A stretch of 64,000 bases of DNA, from the NCBI GenBank assembly GCA_017590115.1, contig JAGGNK010013558.1:19320992-19384991 (forward strand), read 5' to 3'. The notes below the pieces were generated by a model. The model was not told where the DNA came from, made no database searches, and was given only the letters and a program-made list of their open reading frames with translations. Both the position numbers and the translations under genes were made by a program. Within the stretch, counting starts at the first letter, position 1. Each line of letters opens with the position of its first letter. This DNA comes from Montifringilla adamsi (Eukaryota; Chordata; Aves; Passeriformes; Passeridae). Positions 436 through 48,547 of this stretch are shown piece by piece.

Positions 436-3400
436 ATGGGAACGGCGGCGGACGCGGAGTGGCTGCGCTGGGTGAGCAAAAAATTCGGGAATGTCGCTGG
501 GAAGGAGAAGGAAATCAGCCTGGAAGAGTTCAAATCCGCCCTGCAGGTCAAGGAGGTCAGGGATCCGTGGGAAGAGGGGAGGGATCCCTGAGAAAGAGGG
601 GAGAGATCAGTGGGAATTCCCTGCTCCCTGGGAACATCCTCTGATCCATTGGAACGTTCCCCATTCCCTGCTCCACGGGAACATTCCCGCTTTTCCCGCA
701 GTCCTTCTTTGCTGAGAGGTTTTTCGCGCTCTTCGATTCCGACGGGAGCGGCTCCCTGAGCCGGGAGGAGCTGCTGGGATCCCTGAGCCGGCTGCTCCAC
801 GGGAATTCCACGGAAAAGCTCCGCTTCCTCTTCCAGGTGTACGATGTGGACGGTGAGAGGAGAAAAATGGGATTCGTTGGGGTTTTTTGGGATAAATTTG
901 GGATTTGGTCTTCTCTGAGCATCCGGCTTTGGCTGGGATGAGGCTGCTGCCCTCATTCCATGTGGAAATGGAAAAATTCCAGCAGGAAGACAAGGATTCC
1001 ATTGGTCACACCTGAGGATTTCCCAGGATTTTCCATCAGCCGGGGAGAGCGGGATCTGCTCAGCTCCAATCCCAACTCCCCATCCCACTTTCCTGAAATT
1101 GTGGGATTGTTTGGGTTGGAAAAGCCCTCGGAGATCGAATCCAACTGTTCCCACCCCCGACCCCCTTCCAATGCTTTCCTTTCCATGAAGGAATATTCCC
1201 AAATATCCAACCTCAGCCTCCCCTGGATGCCATTCCCATTATCCCATTGCTTGTTCCTGGGAGCAGATCCTGACCCAGCCAGGATTTTGCACTGAAATAT
1301 CTGTAGGACTGTGGAATATCGGGATGGAGGTGACACCGTAGGAGTGTGGAATATTGGCATCAATCTGATTCTCCAGCGAGCAGATCCTGACCCAACCAGG
1401 TTTTTCCTCCCTGCAAGGAAACTTCCTGGATTAGGACTGGAAAATTGGGATGGAGGTGACTCCATGGGGCTGTGGGATATTGGGATGGAGGTGACTCCAT
1501 GGGGCTGTGGAATACCAGGATGGAGGTGACTCTGTAGGGCTGTGGGATATTGGGATTCTCCCGGTTTCCAGGGAGCGGCTCCATCGACGCCGAGGAGCTG
1601 CGGGTGGTGCTCCGGGGGTGTCTCCGGGAGAGCTCCCTGGCCCTTCCCGAGGAGCGGCTCGGGGCCCTGAGCCAAGCCCTGCTCCAGGCCCTCGACCGGG
1701 ATCACAGCGGCTCCATCACCTTCCCGGAGCTCCAGGAGCAGCTGGAAGCATTTCCGGAACTCCTGGAGAACCTGAGCATCAGGTGGGGAGGGGACCTCTG
1801 GGATTTCTGGGAAAGGATTCCATGGGGAGCCCACAGTGGGGTCGGGAGCAGCTGGAGAGGTTTGGGATTGGATCAGGGATAGGTTGGGATGGGTGCAGGG
1901 TTTGGATCAGGGATGGTTTGGGATGGGGCAGGGTTTGGAATTTGGGATGGATGGAGGGATGCTGCCACTCTGGCTGTAGGACTGGCCATCACTCCGGGCT
2001 GGGTATTTCTCCGGATCCCTGTTCCCCATCCAAACCCCAATTCCCATTTTCTCAGTGCTGCCAGCTGGCTGAAGCCCCCCAGTGCCAGTCCCTCTGAGCC
2101 CTGGCTGTGCTGCTTTTCCCGGGAATCCCGCGGGGGCCAGCGGGCCGGGATGTGCTGCTGCTCCCGGGAATCCCGCGGGGACCAGCGGGCCGGGATGTGC
2201 TGCTGTTCCCGGGAATCCCACGGGGACCAGCGGGCCGGGATGTGCTGCTGTTCCCGGGAATTCCACGGGGACCAGCGGGCCCGGCGGTGCTGCCTGGGGG
2301 GCTGGCTCGCCACCACGGCGCTCCTGCTCGCCCTGGGCGCTCTGTGGCACCGGGAGCGCGGCCCCGTCCTGGCGCTGGCCCGGGGCTGCGGGCAGAGCCT
2401 CAACCTCAACTGCGCCCTGCTGGCCGTGAGTGCCCCGCGACACCGGGGACACCGGGGGACACGGACGGGAGGGAGCCGGGAAGGCCGGGAGAGTCCCGGG
2501 GTAGCCAGGAGGGACGCTGGCCCAAAGTTTCATGTTGTCCCCGGCGTTTTCCATGGTTCCCCAACATGTCTCGTTCCCTCTGGAATTTCCCAATGTCCCC
2601 CAACATGTCCCGTTCCCTCTGGAATTTCCCATTGTCCCCCAGCATTTCCCATTACCCCGGAATCTCCCAGTGCCTCCCATTTCCATTTGCCCCCCGCTAT
2701 CTCCGGGTGCCCTGGGCACTCCCCTCGCCCACGGCTCGTCCCTGTCCCTTGTCGCCATCACTGTCCCTGTCCCTCGCCCCTGATCCTGCCCTCACCTCCG
2801 TCCCTGTCTCCTGTCCCTGTCCCCTCTCTCGCCCCCTCTTTGCCCTGTCCCTGCCCTCACCCCTGTCCCCTCTTTGCCCCCTGTCGCTGTCCCCAGGCGC
2901 TGATGCTGCGGCGCTCTCTGACCTGGCTGCGCTCCACGCCGCTGGCGGAGCTGTTCCCGCTGGAGCTGCACGTGCGGGGCCACGAGCGCGTGGGACACCT
3001 GGTGCTGGCCCTGGGGACCGCGCACGCGGGGGCACACCTGGCACAGGCCGGTCAGTGACACGGGGCACACCTGGCACAGGCGGGTCAGTGGGACCGGGCA
3101 CGGGGCACACCTGGCACAGGCGGGTCAGTGACACGGGGCACACCTGGCACAGGCGGGTCAGTGGGACAGGGAGCCCAGGGATGGGGGATCGTGGCCCGAG
3201 ATCCCATGGGAGGGGTGTCTGTGTCCCAAGGAAGGGGAGATGCCCTGGAGGAGGGGTGGCCGTGCCGGGGGGTGCACGGGCGGGGACAGGGACAGGGACA
3301 AGGACACTGGCCGAGCAGGGGACATTGGCCAGACAGGGCAGGGCACGGACAGGGGACAGGGCACGGACAGCAGCCGCGGGCTGTGATCCCCCTCTAGCGG

Positions 3401-6400
3401 CTCCCGCCGGACAGCCGAGGTCCTGAGCGAGATCCCAATCCCGGTATTCCCAAATCCCGGCACCCCACATCCTGGTACCCCCAGTCCCCATCCCAGAGCG
3501 GGTGCCAGGGCTCTGTCCCCCCAGGGGCCACCTCTACTCCCCGTGCCCCTCGCGTGCCAGCACCCCCGGGACAGGCCCGGGCCGGGCTCTGGGCAGGACC
3601 GGGGCATTCCCGGCGGGCATTCCCGGCGGGGCAGCAGGGGGTGGCACGGCGGTGCTGAGCTGTGCCCGTGTCCCCAGGCCTGGCACAGCGGGACTGGCTG
3701 GTGGCGCTGGGCGAGTACGCGCGGCGGGCGCGGCCGGGCGCTGGTGGCGTTGGTGGCACTGCCCCGCAGACCGGGCTGGCACTGCTGGCGCTGCTCCTGG
3801 CCATGCTGGCCTGCTCCAGCCCCTGCGTGCGGCGCGGCGGCCACTTCGAGGTGATCCCATGGGAATTCCCGGCTGGAATGCCGAGGGTGCCGTGGTGGGA
3901 AGGGAGTCACCCCTGGGTGCCCATCCTGGTACTGCCCCGTGGGACCCCGGGAGCCCTGGGCACGCCACACTCGCAGTTCGGGGTTCCTGGGATTTTCTTC
4001 CCCATGGGACCCACGGAATGGTTTCCCAGCGCCACAGGGATATTGGGATGGAATTCCCAGGGAAGCTGTGGGTGCCTTTGGATCCCTGGGAGAGTCCCTG
4101 GAGCAGCCTGGGATAGTGGGAAGTGTTGGGATTGGAACTGGATGGGTTTAAAGTCCTTTCCTTATCCCCAGTCCCAGAGATTCCAGGACTGCCTTGGGCT
4201 GCCTTTTCCCACTGGGATACCCAGGCAGCCCCACCAGGAAGCACCATTTGGGTCCAACACTTCCCATTCCTGTTCCCATTCCCATCCCCACTCCCATTCC
4301 CAGGTTTTTTACTGGAGCCACCTCTCCTACATCCCCGTGTGGATCCTGCTGCTCCTGCACGGTCCCCACTTCTGGAAGTGGTTCCTGATTCCCGGCTCCC
4401 TGTTTGTGCTGGAGAAGGTTCTGGGCTGGGCGTGGCGCCGGCAGGGGGATCTGCACATCCTGGAGGCCAAGCTGCTGCCCTCCAAGGTGGGAATAAATCC
4501 CAAATCTCAAATATCCCACATCCCAAACATCCCAAATCCTATCCATCCATCCATCCATCCATCTCAAATCCCACTATCCCATCTCCCACCTCCTCCTGGC
4601 ACTCTGGGAATGAAGGAACAAACACACACAGAAAAGCTGGAGGTGACAGTGGGAGGCCAAAGGAATTCCTTTATTTCCAAGCCTTTTTCCTTATTTTTTT
4701 TTAAATGAAAACTCATGGAACAACCAGAGCAGAACAAAAACTCAGAATTTTTTCTCCAAATCCTGTAGTTTGAGCCCAGTCTGAACTGGGATTTTGTGCA
4801 ACCCAAACTGGGCAGGGAATGGGGAACAAACTCAATGGGAGGCAGAACCCAGAATTTCAGCTCCACAGGAACCAACGGGAGATATCCTTTGGACATTCCC
4901 AGTTTTCCTGCTCCCGTTCTCCTGCAGGTGACCCACCTGGTGATCCAGAGGCCAAAATCCTTCCGCTTCCAGCCGGGGGATTACGTCTACCTGAACATCC
5001 CGGCCATCGCCGCCTACGAGTGGCACCCCTTCTCCATCAGCAGTGCTCCGGAGCAGCCAGGTTCCTCGTGTTCCCTGCAAATTTCCCTGGAACATTTCCC
5101 ACCCCCAGGATCTTCTTTCCACCTGTTTCCCACCCTTGGGATCTGTTTTTTCATCCCCAGGATCTGTGAGCCACCACTGGGATCTGTTTCCCATTCCTGG
5201 AATGTTTTCCATTCCTGAGATCTGTTTTCCATCCCCAGGATCTGTTATCCCACCCAGGATCCGTTTCCCACCCCTGGGATCATTTTCCATCCCTGGATCC
5301 ATTTCCCACCCCCAGGATCTGTTTTCCATGCCCACAGTGATATTTTTCCAGCTGGGATGGGGCTTGGAGAGAGCGGGGCTATGGAAGGCAGTTTCATGGG
5401 ATGAGTTTGGTTTGAAGTTCTTCTCTATCCAGAGAATTCTAGGATTTTGGGATTGATCCCACAGAAACCCTGTGGCTGCACATCCGGGCGCGGGGCCAAT
5501 GGACCACCAAGCTCTATGAGTACTTCCAGCAGCTGGAATTGCACGGTCCGGAGCCAAATCCGCCCAGGAAAAGCTGGAGGGAGCGGAGGAGCCGGCACTG
5601 GGAACAGGTGGGATTGGGAGCAGAGCAAAGGGATGGGTGCAGCTGCATGTGGAGTGGATCCCATGGGATCATCCCAGCCGGGGAATCCCTTGGGATGAAC
5701 ATTCCCTGCTTGTCCAGCCTTGAAGGGTTTGTGTCCTATGGAACGGGAATTTGTGCCCCATGGAATTTGTGCTCCATGGGATGGTGGGATTTGGGATTGA
5801 TGGGATTTTGTGGATTTTCCATGGAATGGGAATTGTTGTGACCCTGCTGGAGGCCCAGCAGATCCCTGGAGCGGTGATCCCAGCGCTGATTCCAGCCTTT
5901 GTTCCCAGGAAGGATCCGTGGCCTTCAGCAGGGACGGAGCCGTGGAGCTGACGGCGTTCCAAGCCTCTGGAGCCACTTTCCCAGGAAAGGACCCAGAGCA
6001 GGGGGTGAGCACTGCCCCAACCCCAGGGGACAGGGACTGCATCCCAAATTGGATAAAGCTCCTTAAAAAGCTCCTCTTCAGAAAGAAATTCCTTGGATAT
6101 TATTGTGGCATTGGCAGCTGGAATTGTGTGTGCAGCCCAGTGGGAAAATGCCCAAATCCAGGGAATTTTGGGAGTGCTTGGGAAGTGCGGGTGGTCACTG
6201 CTCCCCTCTCCTGCAGGGCGCTGGGCCCGGGGAGACCCCGCGGAGCTGCAGCGTCAAGGTGAGGATGTTCCTGCCTTTCCTGGATCCCGGGAAATGGGCT
6301 GGGATCAGCATTCCCACCATCCCATCCCCGATCCCGTCCATCCCATCCTCATTCCCACCATCCCATCCCCATTCCCAGCTGCTCCATCCCTGTGCATGGA

Positions 6401-8979
6401 TGATCCCAGCTGGGGATGATCCAAACCCTGCCCTGCTGGAAATCTCCAGTCCTTCCCACCCATTCCTTGCTCCCACAAAACCCCGGGAAGATCCCAAATT
6501 CCAGGATCCCCTTTGTGCCCTTCTCCTCTGCCCGGGAGCTGCTCCAGCCCCTGGAATTGCTGGATCTGTCCCCGAGTCTGGATCTCTCCCAGTGCTTCCT
6601 GGACGGTCCCTACGGAACCCCGAGCCGGCGGATCTTCACCTCGGAGCACGCCGTTCTCATCGGAGCCGGCATCGGGATCACCCCCTTCGCCTCCATCCTG
6701 CAGAGCATCATGTTCCGGTGGGTCCCACCGAGCCCCCGCAGCCTGGGAATGTCCCAGGGATTCGGGATGGATGCCCAGGTGGAGCTGTCCTCCAGTCCTC
6801 GATCCTTGGGATTCATTCCCATGGGCACAGGTGCCAGGATTTTCCTTGGGAATTTGGGCTGCGGGAAGGGCGCTGGAGGGAGCTTGGCCATGGGCAGGCA
6901 CCGGGAGGGAAGGGGAAGGAATGGGCAGGAAGGAGCAGGAAAAGGAAGGAGGAGAATGCAGGAATGGGCAAGAAAGGGAAGGAAGCAGCAGGGAAAGGTA
7001 GAAAGGGGCAGGAAGGAGGGAGCAGAAATGGGAAGGATGGAGCAGGAATGGGAAGGATGGAGCAGGAAGGAGCAGGAATGGGAAGGAAGGAGCAGGAAGG
7101 AGCAGGAATGGGAAGATCATGTTCCGGTGGGTCCCACCGAGCCCCCGCAGCCTGGGAATGTCCCAGGGATTCGGGATGGATGCCCAGGTGGAGCTGTCCT
7201 CCAGTCCTCGATCCTTGGGATTCATTCCCATGGGCACAGGTGCCAGGATTTTCCTTGGGAATTTGGGCTGCGGGAAGGGCGCTGGAGGGAGCTTGGCCAT
7301 GGGCAGGCACCGGGAGGGAAGGGGAAGGAATGGGCAGGAAGGAGCAGGAAAAGGAAGGAGGAGAATGCAGGAATGGGCAAGAAAGGGAAGGAAGCAGCAG
7401 GGAAAGGTAGAAATGGGAAGGAGGGAGCAGAAATGGGAAGGAGGGAGCAGGAATGGGAAGGAAGGAAGGAGCAGGACAAGGCAGGAAGGAGAAGGAAAAG
7501 GAAGGAGGGAGCAGGAATGGGAAGTATGGAGCAGGACAAGGCAGGCAGTGCCGCTGCCCCGCGCAGGTACCGGCGGCGGAAGCAGAGCTGCCCCAGCTGC
7601 CATTTCTCCTGGAGCGAGGAACGGCGGGATGATGAGATGACGCTCCGGAAGGTGGGAACGGGAGTGAGAGGGGATGTGGGATCCAGGCTTGGCCTGGGAT
7701 GGGGCTGCAGGGTCTGGAGGTGGAGAGCTCAGGAGCATCCCTCAAATCTGGGAGCTTTGGGAATGGGGGCTGGATCTGGTATCGGGATCTGGTGCCGGGA
7801 TCCAGTGAGATCCCAAGGCGAGGCTTTCCCGCCCTGCCAGGTGGATTTCATCTGGATCACACGGGACCAGCAGCACCTGCAGTGGTTCCTGGGCCTCCTG
7901 GCCAAGCTGGAGACGGAGCAGGCGGAGCTGGAGCCGGGAGGTGAGCAGGAGCATCCAGGTCATTCCCGGGAAAACCCCCAGCCCAATCCAGGCCCCGGAG
8001 TGGGGCCGGATCCCGGCGGGCGGCTGGAATCCCTGGGATTGCCAGGGAAGTTCCTGGAGCTGCAGCTGTACATGACCTCGGCGCTGGGCAAGGGCGACGT
8101 GAAGGCGCTGGGGCTGCAGCTGGCCCTGGACCTGCTGGCGGCCCGGGAACAGCGGGATTCCATCTCCGGGCTCCGCAGCCGCACCCAGCCCGGCCGCCCC
8201 GACTGGGCCAAGGTCAGGGAGCCCGGGAACGGGAATGGGAATGCTGGGGTGTGGAGAGGGTGAGCGGCGCCAAGGCAGGGATCAGGGAATCGGGGAATGG
8301 GATCATGGAATGGAATAATGGAATGGGATCAGAGATTTGGGGAATGGGATCACGGAATGGGATCAGGGAACTGGGGAACGGGATCAGAGAATCAGGGAAT
8401 GGGATCATGGAATCAGGGAATGGGATCAGAGAATTGGGGAATGGGATCATGGAATGGGATCAGGGAACTGGGGAATGGGATCATGGAATCAGGGAATGGG
8501 ATCAGAGAATCAGGGAATGGGATCATGGAATCGGGGAATGGAATAATGGAATGGGATCAGAGAATTGAGGAATGGGATCATGGAATGGGATCATGGAATG
8601 GGATCAGGGAATCGTGAAATGGGATCAGAAAATCAGGGAATGGGAAGATGATCTCATTCCAAGCTTCTGATCTGGGGCAGGGATCATGGAGTCAGGGAAT
8701 GGGTTGGGTTGGAAGGACCCCAAAGATGACCTCGTTCCAAGTGTCTCATCTGGCCCAGGGATGACGGGATGGGATCAGGGGATGATGGAGTGGGCGGGGC
8801 TGGAAGGGAACGGCGCGTTCCCGGATCCCGGCGCGTTCCCGCCGCAGGTGTTCGGGAAGGTGGCGGCGGAGCGGCGCGGGAAGGTCCGGGTGTTCTTCTG
8901 CGGCTCCGCGGGGCTGGCCAAGGTCATCCGCGGGCACTGCCGGAGCTTCGGCTTCCGCTTCTCCAAGGAGAACTTCTGA
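436..8979 (+). CDS. NOX5: NADPH oxidase 5, Ca2+-activated (16 coding exons)
   Basis: Exons: 436-555, 702-852, 1572-1782, 2056-2425, 2897-3050, 3678-3850, 4304-4486, 4928-5060, 5465-5607, 5909-6004, 6217-6258, 6593-6717, 7567-7651, 7841-7940, 8046-8212, 8848-8979. Together they give 794 codons with the frame closing at every join. The enzyme passes electrons from NADPH through FAD and two haems across the membrane to O2, making superoxide. EF-hand loops are at residues 52-63, 88-99 and 132-143; the first hand is degenerate. Six membrane spans follow, with haem histidine pairs H313/H327 and H399/H412. The FAD motif HPFS is at 487, and the NADPH motifs GPYGTP (597) and GAGIGITPF (616) are intact; the C-terminus is ENF. 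Human NOX5 is about 765 aa; most of the excess is a Cys-rich repeat at residues 179-240. The 5909-6004 and 6217-6258 exons, which form a poorly conserved insert, are the least certain. The start matches the MSAEED-type human start but could lie further upstream. Confidence 0.93.
2108..2293 (+). repeat. NOX5: In-frame 45-bp coding minisatellite in NOX5 exon 4
   Basis: Four 45-bp units each encode a 15-residue unit of the form CCCSRES(R/H)GDQRAGM; the first begins CCF and the last ends in ARR. They fill the linker between the EF-hand domain and the first membrane span (residues 179-238), and the next two codons continue with CC. Human NOX5 has a short non-repetitive linker here. The exon's splice sites and frame are intact on both sides (SAASWLKPP before, the TM1 sequence after), so the array should be translated. 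Confidence 0.88.
3027..3171 (+). repeat. Tandem array copying the end of NOX5 exon 5 and its splice donor
   Basis: The last 20-odd bases of exon 5 (GGGGCACACCTGGCACAGG) plus the donor GTCAGT recur three more times immediately downstream, with unit lengths of about 33 to 40 bp. Each copy keeps a GG|GTCAGT donor-like site. Confidence 0.85.
4040..4180 (+). mobile_element. CR1 LINE 3'-end fragment
   Basis: Reads 'ggatccctgggag..ccctggagcagcctgggatagtgg..tttaaagtccttt', the pattern I recall for the last part of avian CR1 (a block ending in 'ctttaaggtcccttccaacccaaaccattc'). It is degenerate, noncoding and lies in a NOX5 intron. The family call rests on recalled consensus. Confidence 0.6.
6707..7420 (+). 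repeat. 409-bp tandem duplication including the donor of NOX5 exon 12
   Basis: The segment beginning with the last 11 bases of exon 12 (ATCATGTTCCG) and its donor GTGGGT at 6718 is repeated almost exactly 409 bp downstream, from 7116, with a second donor at 7127. Identity runs to about 7000/7409. The second half of the unit is a purine-rich GGAAGGAGCAGGAATGG satellite that continues to about 7540. Confidence 0.9.
8270..8650. repeat. Minisatellite (gggaatgggatcatggaatca units), NOX5 last intron
   Basis: About 20 degenerate units of 17-24 bp, alternating GGGAATGGGATCA and GAATCAGGGAATGG, fill most of the intron before the final exon. No exon sequence is recognisable in the unit. Confidence 0.85.
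8684..8750 (-). mobile_element. CR1 fragment (extreme 3' end)
   Basis: 'Tcagggaatgggttgggttggaaggaccccaaagatgacctcgttcca' is the reverse complement of the terminal CR1 block, with the usual 'gggttggaagg' core. Confidence 0.55.
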
Positions 8980-9069
8980 GCGGAGCCGATCCCGCGGCAT
9001 TCCAGCCGGGATCCGCTGGGGCTGCCAGCGGGGGATGGGGCCCGGGGAACGTTTCCTTCGGATCTGGGG

Positions 9070-9075
9070 AATAAA
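9070..9075 (+). terminator. NOX5: NOX5 poly(A) signal AATAAA
   Basis: A canonical AATAAA lies about 90 bases after the NOX5 stop codon. It is the only perfect hexamer seen close downstream and implies a very short 3' UTR. Confidence 0.6.
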
Positions 9076-9079
9076 TCAG

Positions 9080-9840
9080 GAAAAGATGGGAAAGTTTCCT
9101 TTGGATCTTGAGGGAAAGATGGGAATGTTGAGGTTCGCGGAAGCCATTCCAGCTCCTTGGCAAAACCAAGGAAAAACTGGGATGGGAATCGGTGTCCGAG
9201 AGGCGCCACTCCTTCCAACGCGCTGGAATCTGCGCTGGATTGGGATTGTTTTTCCTGGAAAATCAAGGGAATCCAGGAATCAGGAGCTGGCGAGGCCGTG
9301 GATAACAATTCCTCTTGGAATTCCTGATTTTCCAGCCTTTCCCAGGCCTGGGATCTCCTCCGAAGCAGCAGCTCCTGGTGGGCAAGGTGCAGAATTCCCG
9401 GGGTTAGCGTTGGGTCGGGATTGAATCGCGTTCATCCAGGCTCTGTTGGGTTTATCCCCGGCTGGGTGGTTTCTAGGGATGGAGGATCTGGAATTTGTTT
9501 GGAATCATGGAATTGTTTCTGTTGGAAAAACCCTTGGAGATCCTGGACTCCAACCATGCCGCTGCCCCAAGTGCCACATCCAAAGGGTTTCAATCCCTCT
9601 GGGATGTGATTCCAGCCCTGCCTGGCAGCTCCTCCATGCTTGGAGCTTTTCCAGGTGGGAATTTTCCAGGTGGGAATTTTCCCAACATTCCCAAACCTCC
9701 CCTGGCGCAGCCGCTCCACGCCCCCCGCTCTCCCTGAGCCGCCTTGCCCAGCCCGCCGCTCTCCCGGTTCCTTTCATCAGTTATTCATTAATTACTCATT
9801 AATTATTCATTAATCCCCGTTAATTATCGCGATCAAAGCC
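9080..9840. other. NOX5-GLCE intergenic region
   Basis: No coding potential beyond chance open frames. It contains a CR1-like fragment on the - strand and an AT-rich stretch of TTAATTA/ATTCATTAA words at 9780-9830, just before the GLCE CpG island. Confidence 0.6.
9500..9620 (-). mobile_element. CR1-like fragment
   Basis: 'Ggaatcatggaattgtttctgttggaaaaacccttggagatcctgg' followed by 'ccaaccatgccgctgccccaagtgccacatccaaag' parallels the CR1 subfamily whose 3' end reads 'gagttggaaaagacctttaagatcatcgagtccaaccatt'. Divergent. Confidence 0.5.
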
Positions 9841-10290
9841 GGCGGCTCCCGCCTCACGCGGCATCGCCACGTGACCACGCTGTGGGCGGGACCTCAACCA
9901 GCCAATCAACGGCACGCTCCGCCCGGAAGCCCCGCCCCTTAAAGGCGCGCTTCTGATTGGTCGCCGCCGCTCTCGCGGGAAGCCGGGGCGGGGCCGCTCC
10001 CGCCGCTCCCTCCCGGCCGCGCCNNNNNNNNNNNNNNNNNNNNNNNNNNNNNNNNNNNNNNNNNNNNNNNNTAGCCGGCGCCGTTGTGGCGGCGGCACCG
10101 CCGCGCCGCGCTTTCCTATTGGCTGGCTGCCGGCTCTCGCGCCGCCCCTCGCGCGCTCCCATTGGCTGCGACGCTCGAGGGCGGAGCCCCGGCGCGGCCC
10201 CTCCGTGCTCCCCCCGCTGCCCCGCGCGGGGGTTCCGCCGCCCGCCAGGCCCTGGGCGCAGGTGAGGAGCGGGCCGGGATTCCCGGGAAT
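9840..10290 (+). promoter_or_regulatory. GLCE: CpG-island promoter of GLCE, with noncoding first exon
   Basis: This is a sharp CpG-dense block flanked by much less CpG-rich DNA. It holds an E-box/USF-CLEAR-type palindrome (GCCACGTGAC, core 9868-9873) and several CCAAT boxes in both orientations (9902-9906, 9956-9960, 10118-10122, 10161-10165), but no TATA box. A splice donor GCGCAG|GTGAGG ends a probable noncoding exon at 10261. The 48-base N gap sits in the middle of the island, so part of the core promoter is missing. Confidence 0.7.
10024..10071. other. Assembly gap (48 N)
   Basis: Run of N in the GC-rich GLCE promoter, a typical sequencing drop-out position. Confidence 0.99.
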
Positions 10291-10559
10291 TCCCGGGATA
10301 ACGGGAATGATGGGAATGGCGGGAATGCTGGGAATCACGGGAGCGGGAGAGAGAGAGGGCAGCGGGATTACCCGGGCTGGGCGTGCTCGGGCCGCCTCGG
10401 GGTTGCTGCCAGAGCCTGGAACGAGGGAATGGGAGCGGTGGGAATTTGGGAATCCGAGCTGGGAATGCGGGAATATCGGCTGGGAATGTGCGGGAATACG
10501 GGATATGGGCTGGGGGAATGTGGAGTGCAGGAATCGCGGCTCTGGGATTCGGGAATATG

Positions 10560-10775
10560 GAAGCTGGAATTCCTGGGATTCCCTGAGGATTTTCCTGGAA
10601 TTCTGAAGCGTTTCCTGGGAATCAGAGGAGTTTCCTGGGAATACCAGGATTTCCCTGGGAATGTCAGGATTTTCCTGGAATTCTGAGGAGTTTCCTGGGA
10701 ATACCCGGATTTCCCTGGGAATGTCAGGATTTTCCTGGAATTCTGAGGAGTTTCCTGGGAATACCAGGATTTCTC
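10560..10775. repeat. Minisatellite (tttcctggaattctgaggag units)
   Basis: Units reading roughly 'gttttcctggaattctgaggagtttcctgggaataccaggatttccctgggaatgtcag' repeat at about 65 bp for at least three copies in GLCE intron 1. Confidence 0.8.
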
Positions 10776-10831
10776 AGAAAAAGCTCCATCTGGAGCTGCT
10801 CCAGCTCCATTTTCCCCGGTTTTCCCTGCAG

Positions 10832-10928
10832 GAATCCCAAGAGGAATCCGTAAATCCCAGGATTTTTGCCTCTGGAAGCTCGAGATGCGTTAGAATTCCA
10901 AGAATTCCCAGATTTCCCTTTCCCTAAG
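10832..10928 (+). other. GLCE: Possible second noncoding exon of GLCE
   Basis: A good acceptor (TTTTCCCTGCAG) and a strong donor (CTAAG|GTAAGA) bracket 97 bases containing stop codons in the frames available. It has the form of a 5' UTR exon between the CpG-island exon and the ATG exon. There is no protein evidence; transcript data are needed. Confidence 0.35.
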
Positions 10929-11039
10929 GTAAGAGTGGAGCTGCTTTTCCCCATTCCCATTTGTTCCCGGCTCTGCTGGGATCCCTGGAGTTCCTGTCCC
11001 AGCTTGGATCCCACTTTTCCCTGATTCCTGGGAATGTTG

Positions 11040-12060
11040 GCACTGACCCTGCACAGGGGCACCATTCCCCTCCAGGAAATCCCAAATCCATGTCCTGATC
11101 CCGTTTTTCCATGGTTTTCCTAGGATTTCAGGACTGTGTGCTGACCATTCCCCCTCCAAATCCCTCTCCTGATCCCGTTTTAATTTGTTTTTCCCCATTT
11201 TTCCCAGGAATGCAGGACTGTGTGCTGACAATTCCCATCCAGAACATCCCAAATCCCTCTCCTGATCCCGTTTTTCCATGTTTTTCCCTGTTTTCACAGG
11301 AATGCAGCACCGTGCCCTGACCATTCCCATCCGGAACACCCAAAATCCCCCTCCTGATCCCATTTATCCATGTTTTTCCCAGGATTTCAGGACTGTGTAC
11401 TGACCATTCCTACTCCAAATCCTTGTCCTGATCCTGTTTTTCTGTGTTTTTCCCCGGAATTCTGCACCGTGTACTGACCATTCCCACCAGGAACACCCCA
11501 AATCCCTCTCCTGATCCTGTTTTTCTTTGTTTTTCCCCATTTTTCCCAGGAATGCAGGACTGTGTGCTTACCATTCCCACCCCAAATCCCTCTCCTGATC
11601 CCATTTTTCCCCGTTGTTTTTCCCAGGAATGCAGGACTGTGTGCTTACCATTCCCACCCCAAATCCCTCTCCTGATCCCGTTTTTCCATGTTTTTCCCTG
11701 TTTTCACAGGAATGCAGCACCGTGCCCTGACCGTTCCCATCCGGAACACCCCAAATCCCCCTCCTGATCCCGTTTATCCATGTTTTTCCCAGGATTTCAG
11801 GACTGTGTGCTGACCATTCCTACTCCAAATCCTTGTCCTGATCCTGTTTTTCTGTGTTTTTCCCCGGAATTCTGCACCGTGTACTGACCATTCCCACCAG
11901 GAACACTCCAAATCCCTCTCCTGATCCCGTTTTTCCCCGTTGTTTTTCCCAGGAATGCAGGACTGGGTGCTGACAATTCCCATCCAGAACACCCCAAATC
12001 CCCCTCCTGATCCCGTTTTTCCCTGTTTTCCCCCGTTGTTTTTCCCAGGAATGCAGCACC
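11040..12060 (+). repeat. Minisatellite seeded by the acceptor and start-codon region of GLCE coding exon 1
   Basis: About 12-14 units of 60-75 bp read 'tttttcccaggaatgcagcaccgtgccctgaccattcccatccggaacaccccaaatccctctcctgatccc'. The final unit is the true acceptor and start context, CCCAG|GAATGCAGCACCATGCG; in the copies ATG has become GTG or the region has diverged. A higher-order repeat of about 410 bp is visible (for example 11271 and 11681). Many units retain pyrimidine-rich CAG acceptor-like sites. Confidence 0.88.
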
Positions 12061-15000
12061 ATGCGCTGCCTGGCCCGCCTCAGCTCCAAGGCTCTCCTGG
12101 TGCTCTGCTCCCTGCTGGCTCTGCTCTCGCTGCTGCTCTGGACCCGCTGCTCCCACCACCCCCAGCCCCCTCCCGGCCCCCCGGAGCGCCCCGGCATTCC
12201 CGACAGCGAGGAGGCCTCGCCCCAGGACGCGCCCCGAGCGCCGGGAATGGCGGGAAGCGCCGGGAGAGCGGCGGGGCCGCGCTACGAGGAGATCGACTGC
12301 GTCATCAACGAGGAGCACACGGTGAAGGGGCGGCGCGAGGGCGGCGAGGTGTTCCTGCCCTTCAGCTGGGTGGAGAAGTACTTCCAGGTGTACGGGCGGA
12401 TCGCCCAGGCCGACGGCGGTGAGAGGTTCGAGTTTTCCCACAGCTATTCCAAGGTCTACGCCCAGCGCGCTCCGTACCGGCCCGACGGCGTCTTCATGTC
12501 CTTCGAGGGCTACAACGTGGAGCTGCGCGACAGGGTCAAGTGCATCAGCGGCGTGGAAGGTGCGAGGCAGCGGATTCCCGGGAAGCTTTGGGCTTGGGAT
12601 GGTCCTTAAAATGTGCTGGAAGTGCTCTGTAAAACATTCTGGAAGTGCAGAGTGAGCTGGATGTTCTGGTGGGAATGGGGGTAGGGTCAAGTGCATCAGC
12701 AGCATGGAAGGTGCGAGCCTGGGCATTCCCCATGGGGAATTTTAGGGGTTGGGATGAGCCCAAGAATGTGCTGGAAGTGCAGAGTGAGCTGGATGTTCTG
12801 GTGGGAATGTGGGAATGGGAGTGGTGACACAGTCGAGTGCATCAATGGTGTGGAAGGTGCAAGGCAGCAGATTTCCGGGAAGCTTTGGGCTTGGGGTGGT
12901 CCTTAAAATCTCCTGGAAGTGCTCCATAAAATGTGCTGGAAGTGCAGAGTGAGCTGGATGTTCTGGTGGGAATGGGGGTAGGGTCAAGTGCATCAGCGGC
13001 GTGGAAGGTGCGAGGCAGCGGATTCCCGGGAAGCTTTGGGCTTGGGATGGTCCTTAAAATGTGCTGGAAGTGCAGAATGACCTGGATGTCCTGGTGGAAA
13101 TGTGGGAATGGGAGTGGTGACACAGTCAAGTGCATCAGTGGCGTGGGAGGTGCAAGGCAGGGCATTCCTGGGAATCTTTGGGGTTGGGGTGGTCCTTAAA
13201 ATCTCCTGGAAGCGCTCCATAAAATGTGCTGGAAGTGCAGAGTGAGCTGTATGTCCTGGTGGGAATTTGGGAATGGGGGGTGGTGCTGGCAAGATCTGTG
13301 ACAGTGTCAAGGGCATCAGTAGAGTAGAAGGTTTTGTGGGATTGGGATGATCCCAAAAATCTCCTGGAAGTGCTCCTTAAAATGGTTTGGAAGTGGGAAG
13401 TGACCTGGATTTGGTGCTGGGAATGTGGGAGTGGAGTTTTGTGGTAGCACCTCCAGCCTTGGGATCATCAGAGATGAGTTGAGTGGGATGGGACACAGGG
13501 AATGGCTTCCAGTGCCGGAGGGCAAGGATGGTTGGGATTTTGGGAAGGAATTCCTGGCTGGGCTGGAATACCCAGAGAAGCTGTGCCTGCCCCTGGATCC
13601 TGGGAATGTCCAATGCCAGCGTGGAGCATCCTGGGATTGTGGAAGTGGCCTTGCCCTTGGAAGGGGTGGAATGGGGTGGGATTGAGGTTCCCTTGCACCC
13701 AGCCCATTCCACAATTCCATAAAAGTCGGGAAGACCACGCCAGGGATTCCTCTGCCAGCTAAAACCACAGAATTCTGGATTTTAGTGGGAAAGGGCCCAA
13801 CCCCCTCCTTCCCCAGGACTTCCCTCTAACCTCCAACCCCGTTGATGGAGCTCCCGGAATTTTGGGGTGCAGAGGAGGAATTTTCCCCTCATTCCAACGC
13901 TTTTTCCCTGTTTTTTCCGGGCAGGAGTTCCTCTCTCCACGCAGTGGGGCCCTCAGGGCTACTTCTACCCCATCCAGATCGCCCAGTACGGGCTGAGCCA
14001 CTACAGCAAGAACCTGACGGAGAAGCCGCCCCACGTGGAGGTGTACGAGACGGCGGGGGACGGGAATAACGGGAACAACGGGAATAACGGGAACGGGGAG
14101 TGGACGGTGCCCAAGGGCTGCTCCCTCACCACCGTCTGGGACAAGTCCCGGCTCACCGGAGTCAAGCAGTTCTCCTGCCCAGGTGGGTGGTGGGAATTCC
14201 AGCGGGTGGTGGAGCAGGGAATGGCAATTGTTAGGTGCTGGTGTTTTGTTTGGCTTTTGTTCCCAATCCTTGATTCCAATCCTTAATTCCCAATCCTTTT
14301 CGTTCCCAGTCCTTTTAATTCCCAATCCTTCATTGCCAATCCTTCGTTCCCCACCCTTTTAATTCCTAGTCCTTCATTCCCAATCCTTCATTGCAGTCTT
14401 TCATTCCCAGTCCTTCATTCCCAATCCTTTTCACGCCTTATGCTTAATTTCCTGTCCTCTTCATCCTTTTCATTCTCCATTCTTTTTATTCCCCATTCTT
14501 TTTCTTCCCAATTCTTTGTTCCCAGTCCTTCATTCTCGGTTCTTCATTCCCCATCCTTTTCATTGCCAGTCCTCCATTCCCCATCCTTTTCATTCCTTAT
14601 CCTTCATTCCCAATCCAGTCAGGTGGAACAGCCCAGAAACGTTGAATTATTGAAGGGCTGCTCTAAAAGCTTTGGAATCCCTCTCGGGAGCGGGGACGGC
14701 CTCTGGAATCTGCTCCAACCCTTTGGAAACGGGAATCTTTCCACGCTGAGCGAGCCTTTTTCGGGGTTGCTTTTGCAGAAAGCTCCGAGGGCGTCTCCCT
14801 GGAGCTCAACAACGGCCGGGATTTCATCATCTCCTTCGACCTGAAGCTGCTGAGCAACGGCAGCGTGTCCGTGGTGCTGGAGACCACGGAGAGGAACCAG
14901 CTCTTCACCGTGCACTACGTGTCCAGCACGCAGCTCATCGCCCTCAGGGACAGGGACATCTTCTACGGCATCGGAGCGCGCAGCAGCTGGAGCACGCTCA

Positions 15001-15803
15001 CCCGGGACCTGCTGACGGATCTCCGCAAGGGCGTGGGGCTCTCCAACACCAAGGCGGTGAAGCAAACCAAGATCATGCCCAAGAGGGTGCTGCGCTTGGT
15101 GGCCAAAGGCCGCGGCTTCCTGGACAACGTCACCATCTCGGCCACCGCCCACATGGCCGCCTTCTTCGCCGCCAGCCGCTGGCTGCTGCGCAACCAGGAC
15201 GAGCGCGGCGGCTGGCCCATCATGGTCACCAGGAAGTTGGGAGAAGGCTTCAAATCCCTGGATCCGGGCTGGTACTCGGCCATGGCCCAAGGCCAGGCCA
15301 TGTCCACGCTGGTCAGGGCCTACCAGCTGACCAAGGAGCCGGCGTTCCTGGGCGCGGCGCTCAGGGCCACGGCGCCCTTCAAGCTGCCGGCGGAGCAGCG
15401 TGGAGTCAAGGCGGTGTTCATGAACCGGCACGATTGGTACGAGGAGTACCCCACCACGCCCAGCTCCTTCGTGCTCAACGGCTTCATGTACTCCCTGATC
15501 GGCCTCTACGACCTGAAGGAGACGGCCGGAGAGAAGCTGGGCAAGGAGGCGCGGCTGCTCTACGAGCGCGGCATGGAGTCGCTCAAGGCCATGCTGCCGC
15601 TCTTCGACACCGGCTCGGGCACCATCTACGACCTGCGGCACTTCATGCTGGGCACGGCGCCCAACCTGGCGCGCTGGGACTACCACACCACGCACATCAA
15701 CCAGCTGCAGCTGCTGGGCTCCATCGACGACGCGCCCGTCTTCAAGGAGTTCGTCAAGAGGTGGAAGAGTTACCTGCGGGGAGGGCGGGCCAAGCACAAC
15801 TGA
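12061..15803 (+). CDS. GLCE: D-glucuronyl C5-epimerase (three coding exons)
   Basis: Exons 12061-12559, 13925-14182 and 14779-15803 give 593 aa (human 617). This Golgi type II membrane enzyme converts D-glucuronic to L-iduronic acid in heparan sulfate and heparin chains. The MRCLA start is shared with the human protein and has a good context (CACCATG). A signal anchor lies at residues 11-27, followed by a Pro-rich stem shorter than in human. The rest is strongly conserved, including [56 protein letters not shown] and [14 protein letters not shown]476, Y536 and Y554 correspond to the human catalytic tyrosines 500, 560 and 578. The ending, RAKHN, is as in human. An Asn/Gly repeat occupies residues 213-224 where the human protein has a short charged segment. 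Confidence 0.97.
12535..13345 (+). repeat. Tandem array copying the end of GLCE coding exon 1 with its splice donor
   Basis: The exon end GTCAAGTGCATCAGCGGCG + TGGAAG|GTGCGAG recurs downstream with donor-like sites at about 12711, 12857, 13008, 13150 and 13331, spaced 142-181 bp. The copy at 12979-13030 matches the real exon edge over at least 45 bases. The rest of each unit is intronic ('gggcttgggatggtccttaaaatgtgctggaagtgcagagtgagctgg'). Confidence 0.9.
13480..13725 (+). mobile_element. CR1 LINE 3'-end fragment
   Basis: 'Gggacacagggaatggcttccagtgcc', 'gggaaggaattcctggctggg' and 'gaagctgtgcctgcccctggatcctgggaatgtcc' follow the order of the CR1 3' region. Located in GLCE intron 2 of the coding part. 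Confidence 0.65.
14055..14098 (+). repeat. GLCE: Coding microsatellite (GGGAAYAAC)n in GLCE exon 2
   Basis: Repeats of GGGAATAAC/GGGAACAAC encode Gly-Asn-Asn units at residues 213-224, on the luminal side. The 9-bp units change length in whole codons. Confidence 0.85.
14260..14625. repeat. Pyrimidine-rich minisatellite (ttcccaatccttcattcc)
   Basis: Degenerate 12-24 bp units of TTCCCAATCCTT and TTCATTCCC fill the second coding intron of GLCE. Nothing else is recognised in it. Confidence 0.8.
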
Positions 15804-16299
15804 GCTCTTCCCCGTCCTTCCCGCGGTTTCCACGGGTCCTTCCCAAAAATGTGGGGCCTTAAAACTGCTCCGGGGAGGGTTTAGGATCGGGACGCTCTCC
15901 CGCGTTGAGGTTGAGGTTGGGTTTTGTTGGGATTGGTTTTTCCTTTTCCAAGGAAAGCGTTTGCAGAAGCCATAGAAGTCTCGGAAGCGCGGTCGCTGCC
16001 TGGAGAGCTCATCCAGGGCCTCTTAAACCGGGATTTTGTGTCCGTGTTGGAGCAGCTCCCGTGGGATGAGCGCCGTCCACGGGAATCACTCGGAGCCTGG
16101 GATTGCGAAGTGTGGCTTTAAAGTGGGGGGGGGTTTCCTAGGGATTCGCTTTTTTGGGATGAAAAATCCGCGGTTGGAATTTTTTGCCAGTTCTCTGCCT
16201 GGAGATCCTGGAGCTGGAGGGTTTCTTCATGGAAAACACGTGCCCGGCATCATGGAAGCACAACTGGGAGCCTGGAGCACACAGCCCCGGGCCACCAGC

Positions 16300-16450
16300 A
16301 CCCGTGTCCCCTTGGAGCTGGGATCCCTAATCCTGGTGTCCCCTCGGAGCTGGGATCCTTATCCCCGTCACTGGAATTCCCTCGGAGCTGGGATCCTTAT
16401 CCCCGTCACCGGTGTCCCCTCAGAGCTGGGATCCTTTTTCCTGGAGCTCT
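16300..16450. repeat. Short tandem repeat (ctcggagctgggatcc units)
   Basis: Four to five units of about 35 bp of the form 'cccctcggagctgggatccttatccccgtcaccggtgt'. Confidence 0.75.
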
Positions 16451-22793: not shown

Positions 22794-25700
22794 ATGCCGA
22801 GCCCCACGGCCCGGCTGCTCCGCGCCCACCAGGTGCCCGAGGTCAGCGGGAATTCCATCCCTGATCCGGGGATCAGCGGGATTTGGGATGTGACACACGG
22901 GAACGGCGGCAGGGTCACCCCAAGGGGGGCACAGCTGTGTCCCGACTCCGGAATTTTGGGGATGCTCCCCATCCTTTCCCATTCCCATTTCCCATTTCCC
23001 ATCCCCGTTCCTGTTCCCGTTCCCATTCCCGTTCCCATCCCCATCCCTCTCCCCATTCCCATCCGTAATTCCAATTCTCATTACTCCCTTTCCTGACCCT
23101 GTGCCTTTTCCCATTCCCATTCCCATTCTTCTCATTCCCATCATTCCCATCCCCATTCCCATTCCCATCCCCATTCCCATCCTCATTTCCATTCCCATTA
23201 TCCCCATTTGTCCCATTATTCCCATTATTCCCATTATTCCCACCCCCGTCCCCATTCCCAGAGTTACCGGGAGCCGGGAATTCTCTCCGGGTACCGCCCG
23301 CCCCGGAGCTCGGCCTGCGAGTGCCTGCTCAGCCTCTTCGGGATGAACAACGAGACCCTCAACATCTGGACACACCTGGTGCCCGCCGGGTGAGTGCCCA
23401 CGGCCCTGGCACACCTGGGGGTGCCCCTTAACATCTGGGCACGCCTCGTGGGTGTCCCTCAACATCTGGGCACATCTGGTGGGTAACCCTCAGTGCCTGG
23501 GCACGCCTGGAGGTGCCGTCAACATCTGGGCACACCTGGGCACACCTGGTGGGTGCCCCTTAACATCTGGGCACACTGGGGCACACCTGGAGGGTGCCCC
23601 TTAACACCTGGGCATGCCTTGGCACACCTGGAGGGTGCCCCTTAACATCTGGGCATACCTGGGCACACCTGGATGGTGCCCCTTAACACCTGGGCATGCC
23701 TGGGCACACCTGGAGGTGCTGTCAACATCTGGGCATACCTGGGCACACCTGGTGGGTGCCCCTTAACATCTGGGCACACCTGGTGGGTGCTCTCAGCTCC
23801 TGGACACCTCTGGGCACACCTGGGGGTGCCCTCAGCCCCTGGGCACCCCTGGCCCACGCCTGTTGCCCACCCGGCGCTGACCCCCGGCCCATCCCTCCCT
23901 CAGGTATTTCCTGTGGCTGCTGCTGGCGCGGCTCCGGGACTGGGGCTCGGAGGCCGGGGCGGGGCCGTTCCTGGCCTACCTGGGCACGTGCGCGCTGTAC
24001 CCGCTGGCCTCGAGCGCTGCCCACGCCCTGGGCGCGCTGGGCGGGCGCGGCCGGCACCGCGCCTACTGCTGCGACTACGCCGCGCTCAGCCTCTACGGCC
24101 TGGGTCAGCCGGGAGTGACGGGNNNNNNNNNNNNNNNNNNNNNNNNGGGGGAGATGGATGGGATTTGGGGAATTCTGGAGGGTTTGTGGGATTTGGGGAA
24201 TGCAGGGGGGGGTGGATGGGATTTGGGAGTTCTGGGGGGATTGATGGGATTTGGGGGACTACAGGGGGCATTGATGGAATTTGGGGAATTCCGGGAGGTT
24301 TGTGGGATTTGGGAATTCGGGGGGGTTTATGGGAATTGGGGAATTCTGGGGGGTGTGTGGGATTTCGGAGTTCTGGGGGGTTTATGGGATTAGGGGAATG
24401 CTGGGGGTTTTGTGGGATTTAGGGAATGCCAGGGGCATTGGTGGGATTTGGGGAATGCCAGGGACATTGATGGGATTTGGGGATTACAGGGGGAATGGAT
24501 GGGATTTGGGAATTCCAGGGGGTTTATGGGATGCAGGAGTTCTGGGGGGATTGATGGGATTTGGGGAATTCTGGGGGGATTGATGGGATTTTGGGAATTT
24601 GGGCGGTCAGGAGGAGGTGGGAGAACCTGGGTTTATGGGATTTTGGGAATTTAGACTGGATCTGTGGGATTTTTGGAATTCTGGGGGACGGAATGAGCCA
24701 GGATTTATGGAATTTTGGGAATTTTGCCCAGATTTACGGAATTTCAGAAATTTGGGAGCACAGTACGAGCTGGGATAGCCCAGATTTCAGGAATTCAGGA
24801 ATTTAGCCCAGATTTATGGGATTTCAGGAATTTGGTGGGTCAGGAGAAGCTGGGATAGGCCAGATTTACAGCATTTTGGGAATTTAGCCTGGATTTATGG
24901 GACGCCACATCCCGAGGGAAGATTTGGGGGAAATTCCTGCCCTTCCTTTTCCTCATCCCTGCACTCCAGAGCTCAGGAATGGCCTGGAGCTGCTCTGGCC
25001 ACAAATAATTTGGGACAGATCTGGCTGGGTGGGATTTGGAATAACGGGAATGAGGAAAAATCCCAGATTTTACCCAACTGGAGGAGCCTCACTGGGAGCA
25101 CGAGGCAATTCCAGGATATTCCCACAGCCCTCCAGTCCCTCTGGAATGCTGCCTGTTCCAGAGATTCCTGACCCTTCCCGACGTTCCAACCCAGAGCTCA
25201 GAGCTGAGCCCAGGAGGATGAGGAATTGCAGGGGAATTCCAGGGAATTCCGGGATTCAGAGCTGACGGCCCCGCTGTGTTTCCAGGCTCGGCGCTGGCGT
25301 ATTCCGCCTACGTCTTCCCACTGGAATGGGTCGGGAGCACATTCCATGATTTCTACGTTCCCGTGGCCGTACTCAACTCCGTGCTCAGCACTGGCCTGTC
25401 CTGCTATTCCAGGTGGGATCCAGCGGCACCGGGAATTCGGGATGAGGGGTTTTCTCACAGCCGGGAGCTGGGCAAGGGGAAAGAGGGAATTTTTCCACTG
25501 GGAAATGAGGAGAATTCGGTGATGAAAATGTGGAATAATGGGAGGAGCTTGAATTTTTGGGAAGTTCCAAAGGGGATTTATGGAATCCTGGAATTGGTTT
25601 GGATTGGGAGAGAACTTGGAGATGATTCAGGTTCACTATCCCAGGTTCTCAGAGAAGCTGTGGAATTCCCTGTGTATCCCGTGTGGAATTCCCTGTGTAT

Positions 25701-27434
25701 CCCTGTGTATCCCGTGTGGAATTCCCTGTGTTTCCCTGTGTATCCCATGTGGAATTCCCGGTGTTTCCCAGGTTTCTGGAGGCGGAGCGGCCCCGCCTGA
25801 GCAAAGCCTTCCGAACTTTGGCCTTTGTGTATCCCTACATTTTCGACAGCATCCCAGTTTTTTACAGGGTGCGTACCCCACGGAATTCTGGGAAATTTCA
25901 GCTGCCTCAGCCTGGAATTTTTTGGGAAAACAGGCCCAGCTTGGGGTTTGAAAGGCAAACAAACTCCGGCAGGAAAAGGCCCTGGGATATTTTTTCCTGC
26001 TCCGACTGCTGGCGGATTCCTCTCACTTCAAAGGGCTGGAAAATTCCTGCCTTGGGAAGCTGGGAGGGGCCTTTTCCAGGGATTAAACTGCAGCAGGGTG
26101 GGAATTTGGGCTGGCAGGAGTGGAGGTGATGGGTGTGGGGAACTGGGAATGGCTCCTTGGGACTGGTGGATCAATCCTGCTTTTTCCTGGGAAGCAGGGT
26201 TGGAGTGGGGCTGAGGGGAGTGGGGAACTGGGAATGGCTCCTTTGGGATGGATGGATGGATGATGGATGGATGGATGGAGGGATGGATGGATGGATGATG
26301 GATGGATTGAAGCATGGATGGATTGAAGAATTCATGGATGGATGGATGGATGGAGGGATGGATGGAAGGATTCATGGATGCACGGATGGATGGAGGGATG
26401 GATCACTCCCGTTTTTGCTGGCAGCTGTCCCGGAGCGCGGCCGGGAGCTGCTCCGAAGGCTCGCTCCCGCTGCATTCCCGGCACAGCCTCTGCGCCCTCC
26501 TGACCTTCCTGAGCTTCACCTCCCACCTGCCCGAGCGCCTGGCGCCGGGGAGCTTCGACTTCATCGGTGAGCATTGCTGGGAACGCTGGGAATGAACCCC
26601 GGGAATGCTGGGAATGAACCCCGGGAACCCAGGGAATAAACCCTGGGAATGCTGGGAATGAACCCCGGGAATCCAGGGAATCCAGGGAATAAACCCCGGG
26701 GATGCTGGGAATGAACCCTGGGGAATCCAGGGAATAAACCCTGGGAATGCTGGGAATGAACCCCAGGGGATCCAGGGAATCCAGGGAATATACCCCGGGA
26801 ATGGTGGGACTGAACCCCAGGGAATGACCGCAGGGGAATGCTAGGAATAACCCCATGGGATCCCAGGAATGAACCCAGGGAATGCTGGGAATAAACCCTA
26901 TAGCATCACAGGAATAAATTCCTTGGAGCCACGGACATTGGGAATAGGAATTACAAGGAGGATAAAACCCCAGGAATCAGGAATTTGTGGGATAAATATT
27001 CCATGGATGCCAGGTGAAGTGGGCTGAGCGTGATTCAGTCCTGGAATCCTGGAATTCCAGGATGTTTGGATGGGCAGGGACACCTCCCACTACCCCAGGG
27101 CACTCCAAGCCCCCAGAGCATTCTGGGGACGTGGAACCCACGTGGCCCAGCCGAACACCCCTGGAATTTCCATGGAATTTCCATGGAATTCTCAGAGTTT
27201 TCTGTCGCAGGGCACAGCCACCAGGTTTTCCACATCTGCGGGATCCTGGGAACGCTCTTCCAGCTGGAAGCCATCTCCATGGACATGGCGGAGCGGCGGG
27301 GCCGCCTCCCGCTTCCCTCTTCCCTGGAAACCTTCGGATCCCTGGGAATGGGAGCGGCCGCCAGCCTGGCCATCCTCGGGGTCTGCTTCCGCAGCCTCCG
27401 CCCGGAGCCTCCTTCCCGGCAAAAATCCCACTAG
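22794..27434 (+). CDS. PAQR5: Progestin and adipoQ receptor family member 5 / membrane progestin receptor gamma (seven coding exons)
   Basis: Exons 22794-22841, 23262-23389, 23904-24103, 25286-25412, 25772-25868, 26425-26566 and 27211-27434 give 321 aa with frame closure at each join (human about 330). It is a seven-transmembrane plasma-membrane protein of the PAQR family, reported as a steroid (progesterone) receptor. Family signatures are present: [11 protein letters not shown] at the end of exon 2, the SxxxH zinc-type motif (SSAAH) and [11 protein letters not shown] in exon 3, [25 protein letters not shown] across exons 6-7, and the His-containing HSHQ. The start [16 protein letters not shown] aligns with the human N-terminus around HQVP. 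Exon 6 replaces a human Gly/Cys-rich loop with a Ser-rich one. The distal C-terminus ([12 protein letters not shown]) is shorter than and unlike human. Confidence 0.93.
22970..23260. repeat. (CCCATT)n-like simple repeat abutting the PAQR5 exon 2 acceptor
   Basis: Hexamer-type ATTCCC/CCCATT repeats run directly into CATTCCCAG, the acceptor of exon 2, so the array supplies its polypyrimidine tract. Confidence 0.9.
23355..23865 (+). repeat. Tandem array copying the end of PAQR5 exon 2 and its donor region
   Basis: The exon 2 end CTCAACATCTGGACACACCTGG + TGCCCGCCGG|GTGAGTGCCC is followed by about 14 units of the form 'cttaacatctgggcacacctggtgggtgcccc', 27-40 bp each. They are recognisable copies of the exon edge with GTGGGTGC in place of GTGAGTGC. 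Confidence 0.87.
24123..24146. other. Assembly gap (24 N)
   Basis: Run of N 20 bases after the donor of PAQR5 exon 3 and immediately before a G-rich satellite. The exon itself is intact. Confidence 0.99.
24147..24680. repeat. G-rich minisatellite (gatgggatttggggaattctgggg units)
   Basis: About 18 units of 25-30 bp on the + strand, with repeated G4 runs. The rest of the intron to 25285 is degenerate 'gggatttcaggaatttggg' sequence with no gene seen. Confidence 0.85.
25655..25771. repeat. Short tandem repeat (gtggaattccctgtgtatcc) before PAQR5 exon 5
   Basis: Five units of 20-28 bp lead into the exon 5 acceptor (GTTTCCCAG). Confidence 0.8.
26245..26405. repeat. (GGAT)n microsatellite
   Basis: Interrupted GGATGGATGGAT repeat, ending about 20 bases before the PAQR5 exon 6 acceptor. 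Confidence 0.93.
26567..26905. repeat. Minisatellite after the PAQR5 exon 6 donor
   Basis: Units of about 20-45 bp ('gaatgctgggaatgaaccccgggaatccagggaataaaccc') start within 15 bases of the donor GTGAGC. The exon sequence itself is not in the unit. Confidence 0.85.
27035..27125 (-). mobile_element. CR1 fragment
   Basis: 'Gatgggcagggacacctcccactaccccagggcactccaagcccc' is the reverse complement of the CR1 segment 'ggtgtccctgcccat'. In the last PAQR5 intron. Confidence 0.6.

Positions 27435-30055: not shown

Positions 30056-48547
<18,492 letters not shown>

Follow-up and report, generated by a model that had tools for sequence, protein, structure and literature searches.

In 'exon stuttering', a term introduced by Hron et al. 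2026 (PMC12954441), a lateral portion of a coding exon is repeated in tandem, and its splice donor or acceptor is carried with it into the adjacent intron; the phenomenon was described for the most part on dot chromosomes of the chicken. In the available part of that paper, 3.4% of dot-chromosome introns pass the exon-stuttering screen, 190 of the 236 stuttering introns in chicken lie on dot chromosomes, and most copies have their source no more than 1 base from the exon border. Median simple-repeat coverage of introns is given as 7–93% for dot chromosomes and near zero for the others, the lengths of stuttering introns vary from one individual to another, and local expansions are mentioned, in some instances, for other birds. 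A literature search for 'sequence stuttering' and 'exon stuttering' found, among the matches listed, no second paper using these words. Three further systems are related. The minisatellite of human IFI6 (6-16) holds several splice donors, and two downstream units are reported to be used as donors (Turri et al. 1995, cited in PMC4526556); tandem repeats fill the introns of the GC-rich bird genes of Beauclair et al. 2019 (PMC6792250); and tandem genomic duplication can change gene structure by intron gain (PMC4974935).

We analysed a stretch of 64,000 nucleotides from the songbird Montifringilla adamsi (contig JAGGNK010013558.1), hereafter the window, which holds NOX5, GLCE, PAQR5 and KIF23 and has two N gaps, at 10024–10071 and 24123–24146. 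Exons of NOX5, GLCE and KIF23 were anchored by matches to PDB sequences, with stops read as serine; those of KIF23 and PAQR5 were also placed by tblastn with human query proteins, and all final limits were fitted to GT/AG and phase. Comparison with bird records revealed two small NOX5 exons (96 and 42 long, frame kept), and exon 12 is therefore the correct number for the site of the 409-bp duplication. KIF23 exon numbers in the original prediction equal those used here plus one. The joined NOX5 model (before the two small exons were added) and the joined KIF23 model are free of internal stops, and the nearest relatives of the NOX5 protein, among the matches listed, are songbirds (Passer, Agelaius, Vidua and others). 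Proteins of human, zebrafish or nematode match the exons, which marks the exon as the original and its copies in the intron as derivatives. KIF23 exon 18 corresponds to the human CHO1-specific exon 18, which gives the CHO1 isoform its 104-residue insertion (PMC4320110); a start at 43490 was rejected on reading the upstream copies and the phase, which place it at 43442. Elsewhere in KIF23, a 14-residue exon at about 36797–36838 is present as an insert in many of the listed vertebrate records, absent from others and presumably alternative.

Eleven exon edges lie in arrays or duplications (Table 1): the nine implied by the original prediction and two more, one of them weak. The prediction that repeat units in all four genes contain real exon ends was borne out at each of the nine, and so was the claim that the true exon stands at one end of the array, as the true edge is in every one of these cases the copy adjoining the exon body. 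The best self-alignment across the edge scores 125–1386 bits at nine of the 11 edges, 200 bits at KIF23 exon 22 and only 36.5 bits at KIF23 exon 7, scores which argue that the edge copies are not due to chance. The putative GLCE exon start at 12049, 12 bases before the start codon, was placed by its splice-site sequence (AG), and the PAQR5 exon 2 copies are clear in gapped alignment only, their ungapped versions barely passing the cut. Separately, arrays at 4261–4302, 2810–2895 and 25666–25769 end one or two bases before an exon, and the polypyrimidine tract there is itself built of repeats.

Table 1. Genes, exon-edge arrays and the coding repeat in the window (positions of the window).
Feature	Position	Strand	Evidence and details
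NOX5	442-8979 mapped	+	PDB sequence matches, bird proteins, splice/phase fitting
NOX5 exon 4 in-frame tandem repeat, 45 bp x4.2, 15-residue unit	2106..2293	+	TRF, exon model, songbird proteins
NOX5 exon 5 donor array	3029..3171	+	TRF; true donor after 3050; 3 copies, decoy donors after 3083, 3123, 3156
NOX5 exon 12 donor, duplicated 409-bp unit (2 copies, 94.7%)	6707..7524	+	True donor after 6717, decoy after 7126
GLCE	Coding 12061-15800; start-codon exon begins ~12049	+	PDB sequence matches, splice/phase fitting
GLCE coding exon 1 acceptor array	11081..12067	+	Exon start 12049; 11 upstream copies, AG in 9
GLCE coding exon 1 donor array	12529..13449	+	True donor after 12559; 4 copies, GT in 4/4; published stuttering screen passed
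PAQR5	23262 to ~27500 mapped, start and end approximate	+	tblastn with human PAQR5, splice/phase fitting
PAQR5 exon 2 donor array	23356..23865	+	Donor 23389; units include exon codons; GT lost in both scored copies
KIF23	30357-47721 mapped, first and last exons outside mapped span	+	PDB matches, tblastn, splice/phase fitting
KIF23 exon 3 acceptor array	30437..30970	+	Exon start 30961; 4 copies, AG in 3; absent from original prediction
KIF23 exon 7 donor, single weak copy 35878-35921	35735..35921	+	GT lost; absent from original prediction
KIF23 exon 18 acceptor array	42565..43473	+	Exon start 43442; 4 copies, AG in 4/4
KIF23 exon 19 acceptor array, 137-bp units	44684..46021	+	Exon start 45958; 9 copies, AG in 8
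KIF23 exon 19 donor array	46165..46620	+	True donor after 46188; 2 copies, both with GT
KIF23 exon 22 donor duplication	47695..48295	+	Donor after 47721; one non-adjacent copy 48073-48295, 223 columns, 80.7%, GT lost

We applied the screen of Hron et al. to the window (exon against introns, blastn-short, at least 20 bases and 42.1 bits; plus strand, with our exon models). It was passed by 2 of 42 introns, on the donor side of GLCE coding exon 1 and the acceptor side of KIF23 exon 19, a rate (4.8%) that is no fair sample of the genome because the window was picked for this feature. All 11 hits fall in the adjacent intron, the other affected edges gave no hit in this screen, and shuffled introns reached at most 24.3 bits. 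The GLCE hit ends at the exon border; of the KIF23 hits, a single one begins at exon base 1, and the other 9 of the 11 hits begin at base 5 or 27–33; the edge copies themselves do extend over the border. The locus resembles exon stuttering, as far as the available part of the paper describes it (PMC12954441), in having copies of an exon edge and splice site in the adjacent intron, a local origin and repeat-rich introns, with a median TRF coverage of 20.8% over the 42 introns. It differs in being from a songbird rather than chicken, in that songbird relatives of its genes lie on contigs near 20–22 Mb, presumably not dot chromosomes, in an array inside the coding sequence of NOX5 exon 4, where the available text reports none crossing into exons, and in that the KIF23 array is treated as exon sequence in gene models of related species. 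As in IFI6, repeat units hold splice donors, although donor use is reported there (PMC4526556) and the donors here are putative decoys, intronic echoes of an exon end. The intron-filling repeats are shared with the genes of Beauclair et al., in the available part of which exon-edge copies go unmentioned (PMC6792250), and the change of gene structure by tandem duplication is shared with intron gain, except that the copies here fall in existing introns (PMC4974935). The locus is a songbird member of the phenomenon named in 2026, and it goes beyond that paper in the NOX5 coding repeat and the KIF23 gene models that read an array as exon.

The introns of the window are repeat-rich in general. TRF arrays cover 34.8% of intron sequence, 14.7% of the sequence outside gene spans and 6.4% of coding bases, and 69% of the 42 introns contain an array; in KIF23 alone the median coverage per intron is 3.5%. 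Array coverage of the introns, which are not fully independent, rises with the GC content of the flanking exons (rho 0.48, p 0.0014) and with intron length (rho 0.50). Hexamers of the GGGAAT/ATTCCC type are about 4–6-fold over-represented relative to first-order expectation in introns of all four genes.

According to the original prediction, an intronic minisatellite would normally have no cause to take in exon sequence; as a check it named a comparison of repeat overlap at exon edges with random placement. We compared the edges with their surroundings in this one window, with its 88 edges in four genes. Probes of 24, 30 or 40 bases were centred on each point, and the point counted as duplicated when a copy with at least 75% identity lay no more than 1500 bases away. 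As the founder of a k-copy array is otherwise counted k times, duplicated points received a weight of 1/k. The raw intron rate was 0.430, 0.378 and 0.355 for the three probe lengths, and the founder-weighted rate 0.158, 0.139 and 0.133 (block-bootstrap intervals 0.116–0.212, 0.102–0.187 and 0.091–0.184). Duplicated edges numbered 12, 10 and 8 of 88 (0.136–0.091), the 24-base set including two marginal edges, the NOX5 exon 5 acceptor and the NOX5 exon 9 donor, and the PAQR5 exon 2 edge, invisible to ungapped probes, would add one edge to each count. Founder-weighted exon interiors stood at 0.022, 0.010 and 0.010. A peak at the edge, sought in exon-to-intron profiles on both donor and acceptor sides, was absent: duplication climbs with small wobbles into the deep intron. 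A gapped version of the test on a list of 80 edges found 8 of them duplicated, against 41% of the 1500 points sampled in introns and 1.5% of the 600 sampled in exons.

A placement test gave a similar picture. In brief, the gene spans contain 54 TRF arrays, mostly non-coding, and a single unit of each was placed at random on collapsed sequence, from which 7.0–7.1, 6.0 or 4.5–4.6 spanned edges are expected, depending on the choice of unit; by TRF coordinates, 6 of the 88 edges are spanned (P of at least 6: 0.76, 0.59 and 0.29). Three further edges (GLCE acceptor, PAQR5 donor and KIF23 exon 19 donor) are recovered by more sensitive alignment only. Counting nine edges brings P to about 0.23, 0.10 and 0.011–0.017, and counting all 11 to 0.049–0.057, 0.014–0.018 and 0.001, in both cases with a detector that differs from that of the null. 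A strong excess of duplications at edges is unlikely, and a mild one may exist within the window.

These numbers bear on the proposal that exon boundaries actively seed duplication, for example through R-loops formed during transcription, breaks tied to splicing, or template switching where exons join. The 11 affected edges speak for it, as does the low P for nine edges when sensitive boundaries are combined with the shortest units; the lack of an edge peak and of a founder-weighted excess, and a like-for-like TRF count of 6 that is what chance predicts, speak against it. Nor do the arrays show the strand bias sought on the coding strand (25 G-rich against 29 C-rich). We consider active seeding improbable, and the special seeding claimed at exon boundaries is not supported in this window, where random placement alone predicts 4.6–7.0 spanned edges. 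The exon-edge repeats are real and not due to chance; on the evidence of this one window, they are not specific to edges.

Instead, the exon-edge arrays are very probably ordinary products of 'sequence stuttering', the frequent duplication of short neighbouring segments in tandem, in the GC-rich introns of songbirds. Such segments would land roughly at random in introns and across edges. One with its start in an exon and its end in the intron, or with the two ends exchanged, would leave the original exon and splice site intact and put the extra edge copy in the intron; as the original junction stays whole, such a duplication would be tolerated and could persist. The original claim that intronic minisatellites lack a reason to contain exon sequence therefore does not hold. 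Slippage or unequal exchange might later amplify the edge copy, and selection on the protein would mostly block the spread of the array into the exon, which would explain why the true exon stands at one end. Random duplication and tolerance of an intact junction would together account for the anatomy without an additional mechanism at edges. The duplications themselves may come from slippage, break repair or unequal exchange. The idea of a shared mechanism in GC-rich avian chromosomes keeps its general part, which agrees with the available text of Hron et al. (PMC12954441); its exon-edge part calls for nothing extra.

The predicted reservoir of decoy splice sites is present at most edges. With a cut of 18 matches in 28 for ungapped edge copies, GT or AG is kept in 34 of 42. 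The copies that have lost it are both of those at PAQR5 exon 2, the single ones at KIF23 exons 7 and 22, two of the 11 at the GLCE acceptor, one of the four at the KIF23 exon 3 acceptor and one of the nine at the KIF23 exon 19 acceptor; intact decoys thus stand at 7 of the 9 originally implied edges, the exceptions being PAQR5 exon 2 and KIF23 exon 22, whose copies lack GT. Edge identity over the 42 copies is 82% (964 of 1176 positions), and at that identity the retention of GT/AG gives no sign that decoys have been purged, the copies not being independent of one another.

Many decoys also score like the true sites, by textbook splice-site frequencies. The true acceptor of KIF23 exon 19 scores 3.2 and its decoys 3.2–3.4; that of KIF23 exon 18 scores 7.1 and its four decoys 7.1–8.4; that of GLCE scores 7.1 and most of its decoys 6.3–7.2; and the decoy donors of NOX5 exons 5 and 12 score like the true sites. 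The KIF23 exon 3 acceptors and the KIF23 exon 19 donors are clearly weaker, as are one GLCE acceptor (3.0) and two of the four GLCE donors. Correct splicing in the presence of such decoys would be best explained by exon definition, the true site being chosen as the copy nearest the exon's other splice site and not for a better sequence.

The number of intact decoys, the decoy acceptors before the CHO1-type exon that score no lower than the true site and the songbird gene models that enter the KIF23 exon 19 array would also suit a different reading, in which arrays are retained because decoys serve regulated splicing, for example of the CHO1-type exon and exon 19 of KIF23. We hold this to be highly improbable. 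Every scored copy would add at least one stop, except in the KIF23 exon 3 and exon 19 acceptor arrays and the NOX5 exon 12 copy (stops count less in the GLCE acceptor stretch, which precedes the start codon). The exon 19 acceptor array is stop-free in all forward frames from 44733 to 45957; this was rejected as a sign of selection, as 16% of dinucleotide shuffles give a stop-free unit. The songbird models, moreover, are not transcripts.

In those models, array-like sequence appears in the protein. Isoform X2 of Vidua chalybeata KIF23, a database gene model, carries 244 extra array-derived residues at the exon 19 junction. A search with its residues 815–1065 found six proteins: that of Vidua, two from Ficedula and one each from Panurus, Melospiza and Cyanoderma. 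The two Ficedula models have no exon 18 and continue in array sequence until they end, and those of Panurus, Melospiza and Cyanoderma have shorter array-like stretches; many other songbird KIF23 records, among the matches listed, have no array insert. These gene models suggest similar array DNA at KIF23 exon 19 in several songbirds. In NOX5, a low-quality Geothlypis model has an 11-residue insert at the end of exon 5 that, on our reading, can be read from the 33-base unit. The records also place the genes: NOX5 and KIF23 of Vidua share one contig of 21.02 Mb, chicken KIF23 lies on one of 20.45 Mb, and other songbird records, where chromosome-scale, are mostly on contigs of 19–23 Mb. The contigs carrying songbird relatives of these genes are presumably not dot chromosomes.

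The same records weigh on the possibility that the assembler inflated or mis-joined repeats. Arrays are the type of sequence that assembles badly, and the window does have its two small N gaps, but junction residues from the KIF23 exon 19 array recur in records of several other songbirds, the low-quality Geothlypis NOX5 model has its unit-like stretch at the end of exon 5, and the copies are diverged, with 964 of 1176 positions identical. An artefact of assembly is, in our judgement, highly improbable.

Finally, repeats occur within coding sequence. NOX5 exon 4, whose start at 2056 is the best of four candidate acceptors, contains the in-frame repeat just ahead of the region that aligns with the first membrane segment. 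Periodicity of 15 residues (at least 9 of 15 identical) was found in 22 of 103 anchored NOX5 proteins, with about 3 to 7 units; these come from 120 proteins listed of 771 found, 17 of the 120 being left out for want of an anchor. All 22 are, going by their names, what we take to be songbirds. In GLCE, a short 9/18-bp repeat at 14060–14094 in coding exon 2 encodes a run rich in Asn and Gly, where the aligned zebrafish protein has a gap. We raise tentatively, as a rather unlikely extension, that songbird stuttering has escaped the dot chromosomes and makes protein, the stop-free KIF23 exon 19 array being read as a lineage-variable exon segment and the NOX5 coding repeat arising by the same process.

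The simple null of random duplication with selection on exons accounts for the exon edges found in intron repeats, and loci with similar true and decoy splice sites offer direct tests of exon definition. The gene models carry a warning, in that songbird KIF23 annotations may contain repeat-derived residues. Together, these results carry a recently described kind of genome instability beyond the dot chromosomes of the chicken, to a songbird and to genes that apparently lie on a larger microchromosome.
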